Source: an uncultured bacterium
GTDB taxonomy: Bacteria > Cyanobacteriota > Vampirovibrionia > Gastranaerophilales > Gastranaerophilaceae
Direction of reading: 5' to 3'
Length of the DNA stretch: 38,115 nucleotides
NCBI GenBank assembly: GCA_949282215.1
Contig: CASDPF010000015.1
Coordinates: 1 to 38,115, forward strand
Below, in pieces: positions 5,236 to 22,151 of the stretch. A program made the position numbers and the translations under genes. How positions within the stretch are numbered: position 1 is the first letter of the stretch; the number at the start of each line of letters is the position of its first letter. Below the pieces are notes generated by a model that was not told the DNA's origin, made no database searches, and saw nothing but the letters and a program-made list of their open reading frames with translations.

Positions 5236-5264
5236 TTGAAAAAGCTTAAAAAATCATTTATAAT
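5236..5264 (+). promoter_or_regulatory. Promoter of prepilin leader cassette 1
   Basis: TTGAAA (5236-5241), a 17-bp spacer and TATAAT (5259-5264). The start would fall near 5271, immediately before the AAGGAGG of the leader ORF. The same arrangement is seen at the other three cassettes. Confidence 0.75.
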
Positions 5265-5284
5265 AAATGAAAAAGGAGGCGAAT

Positions 5285-5335
5285 ATGCAAAAGATAAGTA
5301 TAGCAAGAATTTCGGGGGGGGGGGCTACCGACTAG
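5285..5335 (+). CDS. Leader peptide of cassette 1, 16 aa, on an 11-G tract
   Basis: AAGGAGG at 5273-5279 precedes ATG 5285. The ORF reads MQKISIARISGGGATD and stops at TAG 5333-5335. The 11 G at 5314-5324 encode the three glycines. The same peptide pattern (M-Q-K, R-I-S-G-G-G-A) appears in three other cassettes. If the tract had 12 G, the reading frame would run through the anti-Shine-Dalgarno arm and stop at 5386-5388; with 10 G it would stop at 5340-5342. Expression is inferred from the strong initiation site and conservation. Confidence 0.6.
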   Translation: MQKISIARISGGGATD

Positions 5336-5339
5336 CAGA

Positions 5340-5469
5340 TAAGTCAAGCATTTCCGACTTAGACCTCCGATTGAAAGCAAAGTGCTGAATGCAAGCCGTG
5401 CCAAAAGACACGGTGATTTTTGTTGCAAAAATTTTGAAAAACAGTTAATAAAAACGAACGGAGGACTAA
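5340..5469 (+). promoter_or_regulatory. Structured leader of cassette 1 with anti-Shine-Dalgarno arm
   Basis: CCTCCG (5364-5369) pairs with CGGAGG (5459-5464), the ribosome binding site of the prepilin at 5470. The helix continues on both sides across A-A mismatches: TTAG 5359-5362 with CTAA 5466-5469, and TTG 5371-5373 with CGA 5455-5457 (one wobble). Enclosed is the hairpin CCGTG 5396-5400 / CACGG 5409-5413. A competing hairpin TAAGTC 5340-5345 / GACTTA 5356-5361 shares three bases with the sequestering arm. Confidence 0.6.
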
Positions 5470-6186
5470 ATGAAAAAGAAAAACGCTTTCACCTTAGCAG
5501 AAGTGCTAATCACCTTAGGTATAATAGGTATAGTTGCAGCAATGACATTGCCTGCTATAATTCAAAAGAATCAAAAAACGATTGCGATTACAAGAATAAA
5601 AAAATATTATACATTATTGCTTCAAGCCTTTAATTTGGCTCAATCGGAATCTGATCCAAATGGTTTAACGATACTATCTTATCTTTCAGTTGTTGATGAA
5701 GAAAATGATCAGAAAGCTCTATCTTTTTTTATTGAAAATTACATTAGACCTAACTTTAAAGTTATAAAGGATTTTGGCTATGTAACTCCAAGTTCTGCTG
5801 GAATGCCCAATTATTATCCTTTAAATGGCATTATTGATTCTGATGGAAATACTTTTCATGGGACTAAAAAAAATATTTTTGTTCTTGCCGATGGGAGTAT
5901 AATGTATGTTTCTTTGGGCGGAGATAATACAACTGGAAGATATGTAATAGCTTATATTGATATTAATGGTAAACAAAAGCCAAATATAATAGGTAAGGAT
6001 GTCTTTTGTATTGTATTATTTTTCCCAAAAGTAAATTCGGTTAAATTCTTTACATTAGATAAACAGAAATCAAGAGAGGATTATCTAAGTACTTGTAATA
6101 AAAATGCCGGGACTATTGATAGTAGGACTTGTGGAGCTTTGCTTCAACATGATGGATGGGAAATGAAGGAAGATTATCCTTGGTAA
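5470..6186 (+). CDS. Type IV prepilin/pseudopilin-like protein 1, 238 aa
   Basis: The N-terminus K-K-K-N-A-F-T-L-A-E-V-L-I-T-L-G-I-I-G is a class III (prepilin) signal: a basic leader, cleavage after Ala before Phe, Glu at +5, then a hydrophobic assembly helix. The prepilin peptidase would remove about 6 residues. The mature part is variable but carries D-I-N-G-K-Q-K-P-N-I-I-G-K-D near residue 160 and ends D-G-W-E-M-K-E-D-Y-P-W. GGAGG at 5460-5464 sets the start, and the leader cassette overlaps it. Role in a pilus, or a pseudopilin in secretion or competence, cannot be separated from sequence. Confidence 0.85.
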   Translation: MKKKNAFTLAEVLITLGIIGIVAAMTLPAIIQKNQKTIAITRIKKYYTLLLQAFNLAQSESDPNGLTILSYLSVVDEENDQKALSFFIENYIRPNFKVIKDFGYVTPSSAGMPNYYPLNGIIDSDGNTFHGTKKNIFVLADGSIMYVSLGGDNTTGRYVIAYIDINGKQKPNIIGKDVFCIVLFFPKVNSVKFFTLDKQKSREDYLSTCNKNAGTIDSRTCGALLQHDGWEMKEDYPW

Positions 6187-6309
6187 TATAATTCTAAACC
6201 CTTGATATCGAGATTTACTTGTTGACTTTTTTTATTTGTGTTAAAGTAATTGTGTATAAGAAGGTAAATATTACATTTTTATAATTTTGACAAAAAGAAG
6301 GAGAAAATT

Positions 6310-8019: not shown

Positions 8020-8048
8020 TTGAAAAATCTTAAAAAATCATATATAAT
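8020..8048 (+). promoter_or_regulatory. Promoter of prepilin leader cassette 2
   Basis: TTGAAA (8020-8025), a 17-bp spacer and TATAAT (8043-8048). The spacer is nearly identical to that of cassette 1, so the repeat begins at the promoter. Confidence 0.75.
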
Positions 8049-8068
8049 AAATAAAAAAGGAGGCAAAT

Positions 8069-8119
8069 ATGCAAAAAACGCAAATAGCTAGAATTTCGGG
8101 GGGGGGGGCTACCGACTAA
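8069..8119 (+). CDS. Leader peptide of cassette 2, 16 aa, on an 11-G tract
   Basis: AAGGAGG at 8057-8063, ATG 8069, stop TAA 8117-8119. Peptide MQKTQIARISGGGATD, with 11 G at 8098-8108. With one extra G the frame reads on through the anti-Shine-Dalgarno arm and the CCGTG hairpin, ending in K-P-C-Q-K-T-R just after CACGG. Confidence 0.6.
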   Translation: MQKTQIARISGGGATD

Positions 8120-8142
8120 CAGATAAGTCAAGCATTTCCGAC

Positions 8143-8259
8143 TTAGACCTCCGATTTGATGAAAAAGAGCTGAGAAGCAAGCCGTGCCAAAAGACACGGT
8201 GATTTTTGCTGCGAAATTTTTAACAAACATGTAATAAAAATTAAAAAACGGAGGACTAA
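8143..8259 (+). promoter_or_regulatory. Structured leader of cassette 2 with anti-Shine-Dalgarno arm
   Basis: CCTCCG (8148-8153) pairs with CGGAGG (8249-8254). TTAG (8143-8146) pairs with CTAA (8256-8259), right up to the start codon. After an A-A mismatch, TTT (8155-8157) pairs with AAA (8245-8247). The enclosed hairpin is CCGTG 8182-8186 / CACGG 8195-8199. Confidence 0.6.
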
Positions 8260-9018
8260 ATGAAAAAAAGAAACGCATTTACGTTGGCGGAAGTACTGAT
8301 AACGTTAGGAATAATTGGTGTGGTAGCTGCAATGACACTGCCATTACTGATACAAAATTATCAAAAGCTGGTTTTGAAAAATCAATATAAAAAAATGTAT
8401 TCACAGTTTTTTAGTGCTGTAAAACTTGCTCAGGCAAAAAATGAGGCTCCTATACATTGTTATTATTGGTCGTACAGTGTGAGTGGAGCTGTTTGTGTAG
8501 AATATAATGAGTATGGTAATTGTAAAAAGTGGACTATGCCAGATGGGAGTCCAGTCCCAAATGATTATAATGGAGCATTTGAGGACTGTACAAAGTTTTA
8601 TGATAATTTTTTTGGTAATGTCTTAAAGGTTTCCAAATATTGCCCTAAGAATGCTTTAGCAAATGGTTGTATAACAGAGAATTATAGAGGTATAGATAAG
8701 GTTAAAACTGAGAAAGATCCTAACGTAGATGAGGATCCTTCCCAAATGTTTAGTGATAGTAAAATAAAGAATTCTTGTCCTGCTTGGCTTTTAACAGATG
8801 GGACTCTTGTAATGCTTTATGCGATTGCCGGCAGACCAATATTTTTATTTGATATAAACGGACATAAGCGACCAAATAAATGGGGGTATGATCTTTTTAC
8901 ATTTGAATTAAAAGGTAGTTTAAATGATGGAATAACAAAGTTAGTGCCTGTAAACTATTATTATGAAGAAGGTGGATTTTCTTCAAGTGATATGTTATTC
9001 AATGCTTTTAGCAAGTAA
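8260..9018 (+). CDS. Type IV prepilin/pseudopilin-like protein 2, 252 aa
   Basis: Prepilin signal K-K-R-N-A-F-T-L-A-E-V with the same hydrophobic helix as the other copies. The mature region is Cys-rich (motifs H-C-Y-Y, Y-G-N-C-K-K, E-D-C-T-K, Y-C-P-K) and carries D-I-N-G-H-K-R-P-N-K-W-G-Y-D. Unlike the other three it lacks the terminal D-Y-P-W and ends D-M-L-F-N-A-F-S-K. GGAGG at 8250-8254 fixes the start. It is expressed from its own leader cassette behind the pckA terminator. Confidence 0.85.
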   Translation: MKKRNAFTLAEVLITLGIIGVVAAMTLPLLIQNYQKLVLKNQYKKMYSQFFSAVKLAQAKNEAPIHCYYWSYSVSGAVCVEYNEYGNCKKWTMPDGSPVPNDYNGAFEDCTKFYDNFFGNVLKVSKYCPKNALANGCITENYRGIDKVKTEKDPNVDEDPSQMFSDSKIKNSCPAWLLTDGTLVMLYAIAGRPIFLFDINGHKRPNKWGYDLFTFELKGSLNDGITKLVPVNYYYEEGGFSSSDMLFNAFSK

Positions 9019-9032
9019 AATAAAATGAAATA

Positions 9033-18100: not shown

Positions 18101-18124
18101 AAAGTCCGTTGAAAAACGGACTTT
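18101..18124 (+). terminator. Hairpin overlapping the -35 of cassette 3
   Basis: AAAGTCCGTT (18101-18110) / AACGGACTTT (18115-18124) with loop GAAA. It ends the 109-aa gene. The -35 of the next promoter (18109-18114) is formed by the loop and its edge. Confidence 0.7.
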
Positions 18125-18137
18125 AGTATGTTATAAT
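18109..18137 (+). promoter_or_regulatory. Promoter of prepilin leader cassette 3
   Basis: TTGAAA (18109-18114), a 17-bp spacer and TATAAT (18132-18137). The spacer is unrelated to those of cassettes 1 and 2, so the promoter architecture, not just the sequence, is kept. Confidence 0.72.
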
Positions 18138-18156: not shown

Positions 18157-18207
18157 ATGCAAAAGTTAGATATAGAGAGAATTTCGGGGGGGGGGGCTGC
18201 CAGCTAA
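18157..18207 (+). CDS. Leader peptide of cassette 3, 16 aa, on an 11-G tract
   Basis: AAAGGAGG (18144-18151), ATG 18157, stop TAA 18205-18207. Peptide MQKLDIERISGGGAAS; 11 G at 18186-18196. With one extra G the frame reads through the anti-Shine-Dalgarno arm and on past the CCGTG hairpin. Confidence 0.6.
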   Translation: MQKLDIERISGGGAAS

Positions 18208-18230
18208 CAGTTAGGACAAGCATTTCCGAC

Positions 18231-18339
18231 TTAGACCTCCGATTATATGAAAAAGAACAGAAAAGTAAGCCGTGCCAAACGTCACGGTGGTTTTTGTTGT
18301 GAAATTTTTGAAAGTCAGATAATAATAAACGGAGGAGTT
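18231..18339 (+). promoter_or_regulatory. Structured leader of cassette 3 with anti-Shine-Dalgarno arm
   Basis: CCTCCG (18236-18241) pairs with CGGAGG (18330-18335). After an A-A mismatch, TTAT (18243-18246) pairs with ATAA (18325-18328). The TTAG/CTAA extension present in cassettes 1 and 2 is lost here. The enclosed hairpin is CCGTG 18270-18274 / CACGG 18283-18287. The TAAGTC hairpin is not maintained in this copy. Confidence 0.58.
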
Positions 18340-19020
18340 ATGAAAAAGAAAAAAGCTTTTACCTTAGCAGAAGTGCTTATAACGTTAGGAATTATAGGTG
18401 TTGTAGCTGCAATGACATTGCCAATATTAATTCAAAAACAACAAAAAATAGCTATATCGTCAAGTCTTAAAAAATTTTATTCTGCAATGAGTCAGGCAAT
18501 ATTGTTGTCTGAAAATGACAATGGTCCTGTTAAATATTGGTATCGGCCTAATTATGAGTATGATCCTGATGTAGGATATGATTATGGAAAGTATAATGCT
18601 GAGTCCAAAATAGTTTTAGATAAGTATTTATTACCATATTTAAAATATTTGAAGACTGATGAAGGAAGGCTGCCTGGTACAACTCCTGAGGGAGGAACTA
18701 TTTCTGGTGCTTTTCCTACTGTATATTTTGCAGATGGTTCTACTATGCAAATTAAGCTAGGGTCTTGTTTTGATATGTATTTTGATGCTAATGGTGCTAA
18801 AAAACCTAATTTATATGGTAGAGACCGTTTCATTTTTTATTTTTGTTACGTAACAGGTGAATCAATGTATGGAAAAAATAAGTTTTTTGGTCCAGTATAT
18901 CCTGGAAATTTGACAACAAGAGATGAAGCGTTGAAAAAATGTAAGGATTCTCCATCTAATTGTGCATATTTGCTTTATAAGTTTGATAATTGGGAATTTA
19001 AGAAAGATTATCCTTGGTAG
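18340..19020 (+). CDS. Type IV prepilin/pseudopilin-like protein 3, 226 aa
   Basis: Prepilin signal K-K-K-K-A-F-T-L-A-E-V, cleavage expected after Ala, then the hydrophobic helix shared by the family. The mature part is Tyr/Pro-rich, has D-A-N-G-A-K-K-P-N-L-Y-G-R-D and ends N-W-E-F-K-K-D-Y-P-W. The frame is open upstream to an ATG at 18247, but that stretch is the leader RNA region and does not stay open in the other copies; GGAGG at 18331-18335 selects ATG 18340. Likely function as for the other copies. Confidence 0.85.
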   Translation: MKKKKAFTLAEVLITLGIIGVVAAMTLPILIQKQQKIAISSSLKKFYSAMSQAILLSENDNGPVKYWYRPNYEYDPDVGYDYGKYNAESKIVLDKYLLPYLKYLKTDEGRLPGTTPEGGTISGAFPTVYFADGSTMQIKLGSCFDMYFDANGAKKPNLYGRDRFIFYFCYVTGESMYGKNKFFGPVYPGNLTTRDEALKKCKDSPSNCAYLLYKFDNWEFKKDYPW

Positions 19021-20638: not shown

Positions 20639-20648
20639 TTTTGTCCAC

Positions 20649-20677
20649 TTGTATTTTAGTACATAATCTTTTATAAT
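20649..20677 (+). promoter_or_regulatory. Promoter of prepilin leader cassette 4
   Basis: TTGTAT (20649-20654), a 17-bp spacer and TATAAT (20672-20677). The distance to the leader Shine-Dalgarno is about 9 nt longer than in the other copies. Confidence 0.6.
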
Positions 20678-20704
20678 AAGTATATATAAAAATAGGAGGC
20701 AAAT

Positions 20705-20755
20705 ATGCAAAAATCGCTAATAGATAGAATTTCGGGGGGGGGGGCTACCAACTAA
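20705..20755 (+). CDS. Leader peptide of cassette 4, 16 aa, on an 11-G tract
   Basis: AGGAGG before ATG 20705, stop TAA 20753-20755. Peptide MQKSLIDRISGGGATN; 11 G at 20734-20744. The +1 frame again reads through the anti-Shine-Dalgarno arm and ends at TAG just after CACGG. Confidence 0.58.
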   Translation: MQKSLIDRISGGGATN

Positions 20756-20780
20756 CAGATAAGTCAAACATTTCCGACTT

Positions 20781-20887
20781 AGACCTCCGATTGAACAAAA
20801 AAGAGCTGAGAAATAAACCGTGCCAAACGTCACGGTAGTTTTTGATGCAAAATTTTTGAAAGTCAGATAATAACAAACGGAGGATTT
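20781..20887 (+). promoter_or_regulatory. Structured leader of cassette 4 with anti-Shine-Dalgarno arm
   Basis: CCTCCG (20784-20789) pairs with CGGAGG (20878-20883). After an A-A mismatch, TTG (20791-20793) pairs with CAA (20874-20876). The hairpin CCGTG 20818-20822 / CACGG 20831-20835 is extended by an A-T pair where cassette 1 has G-T. Confidence 0.58.
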
Positions 20888-21568
20888 ATGAAAAAGAAAA
20901 AAGCTTTCACCTTGGCAGAAGTGCTTATAACGTTAGGAATTATAGGTGTTGTCGCCGCAATGACATTGCCTATTATAGTTGGTAATTATAAAAAGCAGGA
21001 AGTTGTAACTTCAGTTCAAAAAGTTTATTCAGTTTTAAATCAAGCTTTTAACTTTTCCCAAGCTGATAATGAATCTTATGAATATTGGGCTCAAGCTTAT
21101 GAAATTGGTTCAGAGAATTATTTTAATAAGTACTGGAGACCTTATTTTAAACTTAGACGTATTTGTAATAATTATAAAGATTGTGGATATAAAAAAGCTA
21201 CTCCTTGGATATTAACCAATGGTAATATTTCTACTTTACAAGTTGTATAAAAGTCTTTGCGTATTACATTTCTTACTCAAGATGGGATGCTAGTTTCTAT
21301 TTCAGCCTATACCGGTTCAACAGATTTGGATAATGGAGGAAATATTGATCATTCAATTTATGTTGATATAAATGGACCTAAGGAGCCGAATCAATTTGGA
21401 AAAGATTTTTTTTCTTTTAAAAGAACTAAAAAAGGGATAATGCCGACTGGCTACGAATATTCTGCAGCTTCAGTTAACTATAATTGTTCAAAGAGTAGTT
21501 CTGGAACATATTGTGCTGCAAAGTTATTTAAAGATGGCTGGAAAATGAATGCGGATTACCCATGGTAA
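20888..21568 (+). pseudogene. Type IV prepilin-like protein 4, interrupted by an in-frame TAA
   Basis: The N-terminus K-K-K-K-A-F-T-L-A-E-V is a normal prepilin signal. The frame stops at TAA 21248-21250 after 120 codons, then continues open in the same frame to 21568. The distal part carries D-I-N-G-P-K-E-P-N-Q-F-G-K-D and the family ending D-G-W-K-M-N-A-D-Y-P-W. A single substitution therefore explains the break. The upstream half would be a truncated pilin without the conserved C-terminal modules. The leader cassette is intact. A sequencing error at one base is the main alternative. Confidence 0.8.
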
Positions 21569-21572
21569 AAAT

Positions 21573-22151
21573 CTAATATTCAATACCTTTTCTGGCTGCA
21601 ATCCCAGTATCCCAGTAGTGTTTTACAGGCTTAATTTCAGATACCAGATGGGCAATATCTATTATTTCCTGTCTGGCATTTCTGCCTGTTAGGACTATTT
21701 CCATTTCTTCAGGTTTATTTTTTAGTACATCAAGCATTTCATTCAAATCAATAAAACCCATATCAATTGCAATATTCGCTTCATCAAGGATAATCAGATT
21801 ATATTCGTCATTTTGTATAGCTTTTTTAGCTAATGCCCAGCCTTTTTTTATCAGTTCTACATCGTCATCAGTTTTGTTGTTTTGATAGACAATTCTATCA
21901 GGCCCTGCTTGAATAATTGTTAAATTATTAGCAATTTCAGGGGATAGGTTTCTAAATGAATTAAGTTCTCCATAGTCATCTCCGCCTTTCATAAACATAA
22001 TAATCAAGACTTTCCAACATCTGCCTAACGCCCTCATTGCGAGACCTAGAGAGGCTGTTGTCTTACCTTTTCCGTTACCTGTGTAGACTTGTATATATCC
22101 GTGTTTTGCCCAATTCGGGTTTATTAAATTGTTTGTACAATTGTCTGTCAT
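21573..22151 (-). CDS. cobO: Cob(I)alamin adenosyltransferase, CobO/BtuR type (copy 2), 192 aa
   Basis: Same fold and motifs as copy 1: P-loop G-N-G-K-G-K-T-T, L-I-I-L-D-E-A-N, E-I-V-L-T-G-R-N-A and the ending H-Y-W-D-T-G-I-A-A-R-K-G-I-E-Y. It has about 15 extra N-terminal residues (M-T-D-N-C-T-N-N-L-I-N-P-N-W). There is no Shine-Dalgarno in the 24 nt upstream; a minus-strand TATAAT (22165-22160) lies 8 nt before the ATG, suggesting a very short or absent leader. Convergent with the broken prepilin 4 (4 nt apart), divergent from the folate gene. Confidence 0.92.
   Translation of the reverse strand: MTDNCTNNLINPNWAKHGYIQVYTGNGKGKTTASLGLAMRALGRCWKVLIIMFMKGGDDYGELNSFRNLSPEIANNLTIIQAGPDRIVYQNNKTDDDVELIKKGWALAKKAIQNDEYNLIILDEANIAIDMGFIDLNEMLDVLKNKPEEMEIVLTGRNARQEIIDIAHLVSEIKPVKHYWDTGIAARKGIEY

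Follow-up and report, generated by a model that had tools for sequence, protein, structure and literature searches.

The 38,115-nt window, which is the whole stretch of contig CASDPF010000015.1 (assembly GCA_949282215.1, Gastranaerophilaceae) analyzed here, contains four prepilin genes, each preceded by a copy of the same leader (Table 1). The block CATTTCCGACTTAGACCTCC begins at positions 5349, 8133, 18221 and 20769, against zero occurrences expected from shuffled sequences, and in all four copies it is accompanied by AGGAGG, a 16-codon open reading frame (ORF) with exactly 11 consecutive G residues, a CCGTG/CACGG hairpin and the Shine-Dalgarno (SD) sequence of the prepilin (termed here SD2), all as described in a first-pass annotation of this DNA. 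The same annotation assigned each copy a promoter with a 17-bp spacer, which is exact in copies 1 and 2 and readable in copy 3; in copy 4 the -10 element is clear and the -35 element weak. In a set of 82 leader copies, the mean score of the best promoter match is 9.9 out of 12 (8.3 for shuffled sequences), and 60 of these copies have a 17-bp spacer. All four prepilins bear the N-terminal methylation motif PF07963, and, again as annotated, conservation among the copies in the window stops after the signal peptide. In prepilins of the form found in the window, the residue preceding the Phe of the cleavage site is always Ala (NA/FTLAE) instead of the usual Gly. The prepilin of copy 4 is broken by a single in-frame TAA, yet the leader of this copy is intact.

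Table 1. Leader and prepilin features of the four units, in window coordinates.
Copy	Feature	Position	Strand	Remark
1	Promoter TTGAAA-17-TATAAT	5236..5264	+	exact match
1	SD1 (AGGAGG) of leader ORF	5274..5279	+	
1	Leader ORF, MQKISIARISGGGATD then stop	5285..5335	+	
1	G11 tract	5314..5324	+	proposed frame-setting switch
1	Invariant block	5349..5369	+	CCTCCG at 5364-5369, predicted anti-SD of prepilin RBS
1	Hairpin GCCGTG/CACGGT	5395..5414	+	followed by GATTTTTG; terminator-like
1	Prepilin SD (SD2), GGAGG	5460..5464	+	
1	Prepilin, 238 aa	5470..6186	+	congener has other cargo after about 5547
2	Promoter	8020..8048	+	exact TTGAAA-17-TATAAT
2	Leader ORF, MQKTQIARISGGGATD then stop	8069..8119	+	G11 at 8098-8108
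2	Block	8133..8153	+	predicted anti-SD at 8148-8153
2	Hairpin	8181..8200	+	
2	Prepilin	8260..9018	+	congener G003 lacks entire unit 8024-9027
3	Promoter TTGAAA-17-TATAAT	18109..18137	+	read from sequence
3	Leader ORF, MQKLDIERISGGGAAS then stop	18157..18207	+	G11 at 18186-18196
3	Block with predicted anti-SD	18221..18241	+	
3	Hairpin	18269..18288	+	
3	Prepilin	18340..19020	+	start is the one bearing SD2, not ORF start 18247
4	Leader ORF, MQKSLIDRISGGGATN then stop	20705..20755	+	G11 at 20734-20744
4	Block with predicted anti-SD	20769..20789	+	
4	Hairpin	20817..20836	+	
4	Prepilin	20888..21568	+	in-frame TAA at 21248-21250; G003 lacks unit 20641-21573

The host of this leader family is a gut bacterium with cyanobacterial relatives, a member of Candidatus Gastranaerophilales in the genus of Ca. 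Scatousia. In the 2.19-Mb genome to which the window belongs (G000), a search for the 20-nt block that allows up to three mismatches gives 60 matches, and a covariance model gives 72, divergent forms included. Among relatives, the block was matched 35 times in G003, twice in G006 (one of these not being a leader) and once in G007, and there was no match in the remaining 55; similarly, a family-wide search with the covariance model drew responses from the genus only, apart from one weak match elsewhere. No Rfam covariance model matches the leader, and phage, plasmid and viral collections contain no match to it. A prepilin follows in all 93 readable units, with exactly six residues ahead of its FTLAEV motif in each, and none of these units has a leader situated away from a prepilin. 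The suggestion that the leader is dedicated to a pilin family is thus borne out: matches stand before prepilins, not scattered relative to genes as those of a mobile repeat might be, and are almost exclusive to the genus. Because G000 encodes at least 150 prepilin N-methylation motifs, many of its prepilins lack this particular leader. Leader copies lie at or close to the ends of several G000 contigs (C1, C10, C12, C13, C19, C24, C25 and C33); the assembly was probably interrupted by the repeat, and the real copy number may therefore be higher.

The leader ORF, whose translation is predicted from its SD sequence and reading frame, encodes a peptide with the consensus MQKxxIDRISGGGAT[ND] followed by a stop. 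GGG is a minor glycine codon (31 of the 392 Gly codons in genes of the window), and tracts of C+G9 occur 74 times in the genome when 0.06 are expected from its composition; the homopolymer is pure in 89 tract copies. Upon translation, the length of this homopolymer would set the frame in which the remainder of the leader is read, and the three frames end at distinct places: among 77 G11 copies, the stop precedes the block by 16 nt for frame 0 (74 copies) and by 9 nt for frame -1 (69 copies), whereas frame +1 reads through the block in all 77 with no stop before it. In 29 copies the +1 stop lies approximately 10 nt ahead of the hairpin, and in about 28 it falls within the 3' arm; it is nearly always upstream of SD2. 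Divergent leaders have the same arrangement, in that the present frame closes before the anti-SD and another frame passes it in 16 of 17. We also considered the possibility that the +1 frame encodes a conserved protein, and rejected it because substitutions are often nonsynonymous and indels downstream of the block give different C-termini.

The block contains CCTCC, the complement of the prepilin SD sequence, a feature missed in the first-pass annotation. In RNA, its CCUCCG is the complement of CGGAGG in the ribosome-binding site (RBS) of the prepilin, and RNAalifold pairs the two unprompted. For RNA downstream of the 0-frame stop, the predicted probability that SD2 is unpaired has a median of 0.00; occluding the block raises it to 0.64, and shuffling the upstream part gives 0.40. 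Because block and RBS are both invariant in the main family, there is no covariation between them in that family (-20.9 kcal/mol for matched and -20.75 kcal/mol for mismatched combinations), and we therefore turned to divergent leaders. In most of the divergent forms related through the covariance model, the arm lies 39-43 nt downstream of the tract, with flanks that track the form's own SD sequence: AUUCCUCCG faces CGGAGGAAU in L108, UACCUCC faces GGAGGUA in L107, CUCCAAA faces UUUGGAG in L305, and UUUUACCUCC faces GGAGGUAAAA in L143. Over fifteen divergent forms, the flanks yield 52 contiguous pairs against 31.2 +/- 5.7 after permutation, with a p-value of 0.0006 that is indicative because the forms share some ancestry; duplex energies (89 of 20000) are consistent with the permutation result. 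An unrelated form in G007 has its RBS masked by AUUUGCGAAU against AUUCGCGAAUG, and its read-through frame ends at a hairpin with T6. From these pairings, we conclude that the block is an anti-SD predicted to sequester the prepilin RBS, with the pairing kept by compensatory changes. Separately, the AAUGCUU codons of the prepilin at NA/FTLAE are complementary to AAGCAUUU of the block, and RNA pairing may thus constrain the signal peptide.

The hairpin that follows the leader has a 6-bp stem and 5-6 T in 8 nt, the run often being interrupted; L113, L231 and L251 represent the only forms with a clear hairpin plus T6, and the hairpin is absent or damaged in L056 and L045. Between hairpin and SD2, about half of the copies contain the promoter-like sequence TGTTAAAAT, and a sub-form, counted in 41 of the 93 units, has AAAAATGTTAAAATAGAAAATAGTATA there, which resembles a -10 element; a possible internal promoter at this place could bypass the leader switch.

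The tract is G11 in 51 of the 56 leaders of G000 in which it is measurable, and none of the standard-leader copies of this genome has a length that permits read-through; in G003, 4 of 32 do (G12), all four preceding intact prepilins. Broken prepilins are few, and the tract is altered in three of six. Tract length differs between related loci and between related genomes: the orthologous leaders L037 and L095 have G11 and G12, respectively, within flanks that are 95/89% identical, further orthologous pairs of G000 and G003 also differ (including G10/G11), and among paralogues in G007 G11 is open and G12 closed. Across loci the tracts span G9 to G18, each length being one consensus per locus from one assembly per species, in which short-read assembly of G-tracts can err. 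The consensus of a metagenome-assembled genome (MAG) may likewise mask a mixture of tract lengths. The uniformity of G11 counts against a fast switch, for which scatter might be expected. The G18 copy (L138, at G006:C3:108083), in which about 50 additional A-rich bases separate the tract from the block, is apparently decaying.

Short SD-led ORFs with G-tracts are abundant in congeners, and most of them run directly, out of frame, into a prepilin or a secretory protein. In 7 of 58 such fused loci the long ORF is in frame as assembled, and in the other 51 it would need another tract length (a shift of -1 in 43 and of +1 in 8). In one example, G11 yields the 15-aa peptide MRNSVIVSISGGGAG and then a stop, and one G fewer yields a full prepilin that continues as GGGQDKSLSVKGFTLAEVL. 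These loci look like textbook contingency loci that would be mostly OFF in the assemblies. Intermediates exist as well, since L143 and L270 combine an RBS of their own with an in-frame fusion in one shifted frame. The first-pass annotation had taken the leader for a regulatory RNA of no described design. An RNA part is indeed present, as anti-SD arm and hairpin, but it appears to be gated by the frame of the G-tract, and because relatives have the tract-bearing ORF joined to prepilins in a mismatched frame, the leader is best read as a phase-variation module rather than as a regulatory RNA of the metabolite type. At L115, L136 and L210 (G012, G005 and CALUTK01), the G-tract ORF start leads in some frame to long secreted proteins (over 500 to 1000 aa) instead of prepilins, which extends the contingency system beyond pilins.

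The prepilins behind the leaders are exchanged. The window is collinear with congener G003, and at site 1 leader and signal are common to the two genomes as far as 5547, similarity resumes at 6215, and the pilins in between differ; this synteny agrees with the earlier proposal that leader and signal form one cassette with variable cargo. At sites 2 and 4, G003 lacks the whole units (Table 1; compared with L289/L290). No target-site duplication or inverted ends are obvious at these two presence/absence sites, and we therefore claim no transposon. Beyond residue 40, the closest cargo paralogues are about 39% identical (median).

The frame geometry, the covarying anti-SD pairing, the tract differences between orthologues and between paralogues, the restriction to prepilins and the swapping of cargo, all of them visible in the sequences, point to each leader being, with good probability, a switch that controls expression of the following prepilin by phase variation. 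Were the G-tract to slip, its length would change and with it the frame in which ribosomes exit the tract. At G10, G11 and G13, ribosomes would in most copies stop 9-16 nt before the block, leaving it free to pair with the SD and start region of the prepilin and allowing the hairpin to form, such that the prepilin is OFF. At G12 or G9, they would continue past the block and stop at the hairpin, either immediately ahead of it or within it, so that the block is unpaired, the RBS exposed, the hairpin disturbed and the prepilin ON. G11 would accordingly be the OFF state, tract lengths would vary within a population, and control might act on translation, on transcription or on both. With approximately 60 units per genome in addition to the fused G-tract prepilins, each cell might express a small random subset of pilins.

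Expression could also be set without any change in DNA, if a few of the ribosomes or RNA polymerases passing a tract of fixed length shifted frame and thereby provided constant low expression. The near-invariance of G11 leaves room for such programmed slippage, and 43 of 58 fused loci have their long frame at -1, as expected if ribosomes slipped back by one nucleotide on G GGG GGG. However, the window family requires +1, not -1, for read-through in 77 of 77 copies, and because its fused relatives mostly require -1, a single -1 frameshift cannot serve both; moreover, orthologues and paralogues alike differ in tract length, and the loci as a whole range from G9 to G18. We consider this explanation unlikely; its variant in which the polymerase slips at the tract, with either sign, may still apply. 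A signal-responsive attenuator, in which a pause at the three GGG codons or at RISGGGAT senses glycyl-tRNA or another cue and controls the exposure of SD2, would account for the conserved short peptide, the rare GGG codons and the downstream anti-SD and hairpin, which resemble those of amino-acid and translational attenuators. But the anti-SD lies about 39-43 nt downstream and is not covered by a ribosome paused at the tract, so that pausing would not expose SD2; the N-terminal residues of the leader vary, being unrelated in L057 and L090, and in the fused relatives the tract acts as a frame switch. Attenuation of this kind is therefore improbable, about half as credible as programmed slippage.

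Two further explanations were considered. In Helicobacter pylori, a variable G-repeat in the untranslated mRNA leader of tlpB is read by the small RNA RepG and affects expression (PMC8295292); the repeat of the Gastranaerophilales leader lies instead within an ORF. A trans-acting C/U-rich sRNA might similarly bind the G-tract, with the tract merely its target. This precedent, with its variable 12G leader tract, is the argument in favor, but such binding leaves the frame geometry, the stop positions and the covarying anti-SD unexplained; we give it the least credence. Hardly more plausible is a repeat without regulatory role, the end of a recombination or mobile cassette conserved by gene conversion: units are present or absent as a whole and cargo is swapped at shared sites, as it would predict, yet conservation is patchy and shaped like functional sites, divergent forms preserve pairing by compensation, all matches are correctly placed before a prepilin, and the phage, plasmid and viral collections hold none.

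The phase-variable switch that we favor has parallels in several known systems. In translational attenuators of the erm and cat type, drug-stalled ribosomes on a leader control the masking of an RBS by an anti-SD; leader translation would likewise govern the masking of the downstream RBS here, but the determinant would be a frame set in the DNA rather than ribosomes stalled by a drug. The closest parallel, and one that qualifies the novelty first claimed for the design, is a leader-peptide phase-variation attenuator already described for pil1 of Streptococcus gallolyticus, in which frameshifting repeats in the leader peptide were shown experimentally to control the pilus (PMC3894217). Both have a slippage-prone repeat inside a short leader ORF that has its own RBS and lies upstream of pilus genes, and in both the shifted frame stops just before or inside the hairpin; from the stop of the common state to the hairpin is 39-49 nt in pil1 (PMC3894217) and about 61 nt here. 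The pil1 and pil3 systems employ GCAGA pentamers and an intrinsic terminator with 6 U, and serve sortase pili at two loci (PMC3894217), whereas the present leaders precede type IV prepilins in approximately 60 units per genome and have a mononucleotide G11, a weaker hairpin and an anti-SD arm that covaries with the RBS. The logic of pil1 has been demonstrated by experiment and that of the Gastranaerophilales leader is predicted from sequence; there is no sign of common descent. In Bifidobacterium, another gut commensal, length polymorphism of a G11 tract was measured, the sortase-pilus gene of B. breve being the case in point (PMC9187656). There, too, a G11-type tract near the 5' end sets the downstream frame, an exact fit for the fused prepilins of congeners; unlike this contingency locus, the window prepilins have their own start and RBS and are fused to the leader ORF in no frame.

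We lean, by a modest margin over even chances, towards genome-wide combinatorial antigenic variation, in which dozens of type IV pilin cassettes share one portable RNA switch, each with its own G-tract to determine whether ribosomes clear the anti-SD arm from the pilin RBS, and exchange cargo between leader sites; such a frame-gated anti-SD switch would be without precedent, would have evolved independently of pil1 and would operate at genome scale. The literature searched yielded no paper that combines 'Gastranaerophilales' and 'phase variation', and among the papers found, phase variation by leader-peptide frameshifting is represented by one experimental system. If true, ours would be a second, separate invention in an uncultured gut lineage, with another repeat and with an RBS-masking arm visible in covariation, and it would explain why many such genomes hold on the order of 100 prepilin genes. 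It suggests that a group of gut commensals switches pilins at a scale usually linked to pathogens. G-tract prepilins in these MAGs resemble short ORFs or pseudogenes, and may simply be switched off.
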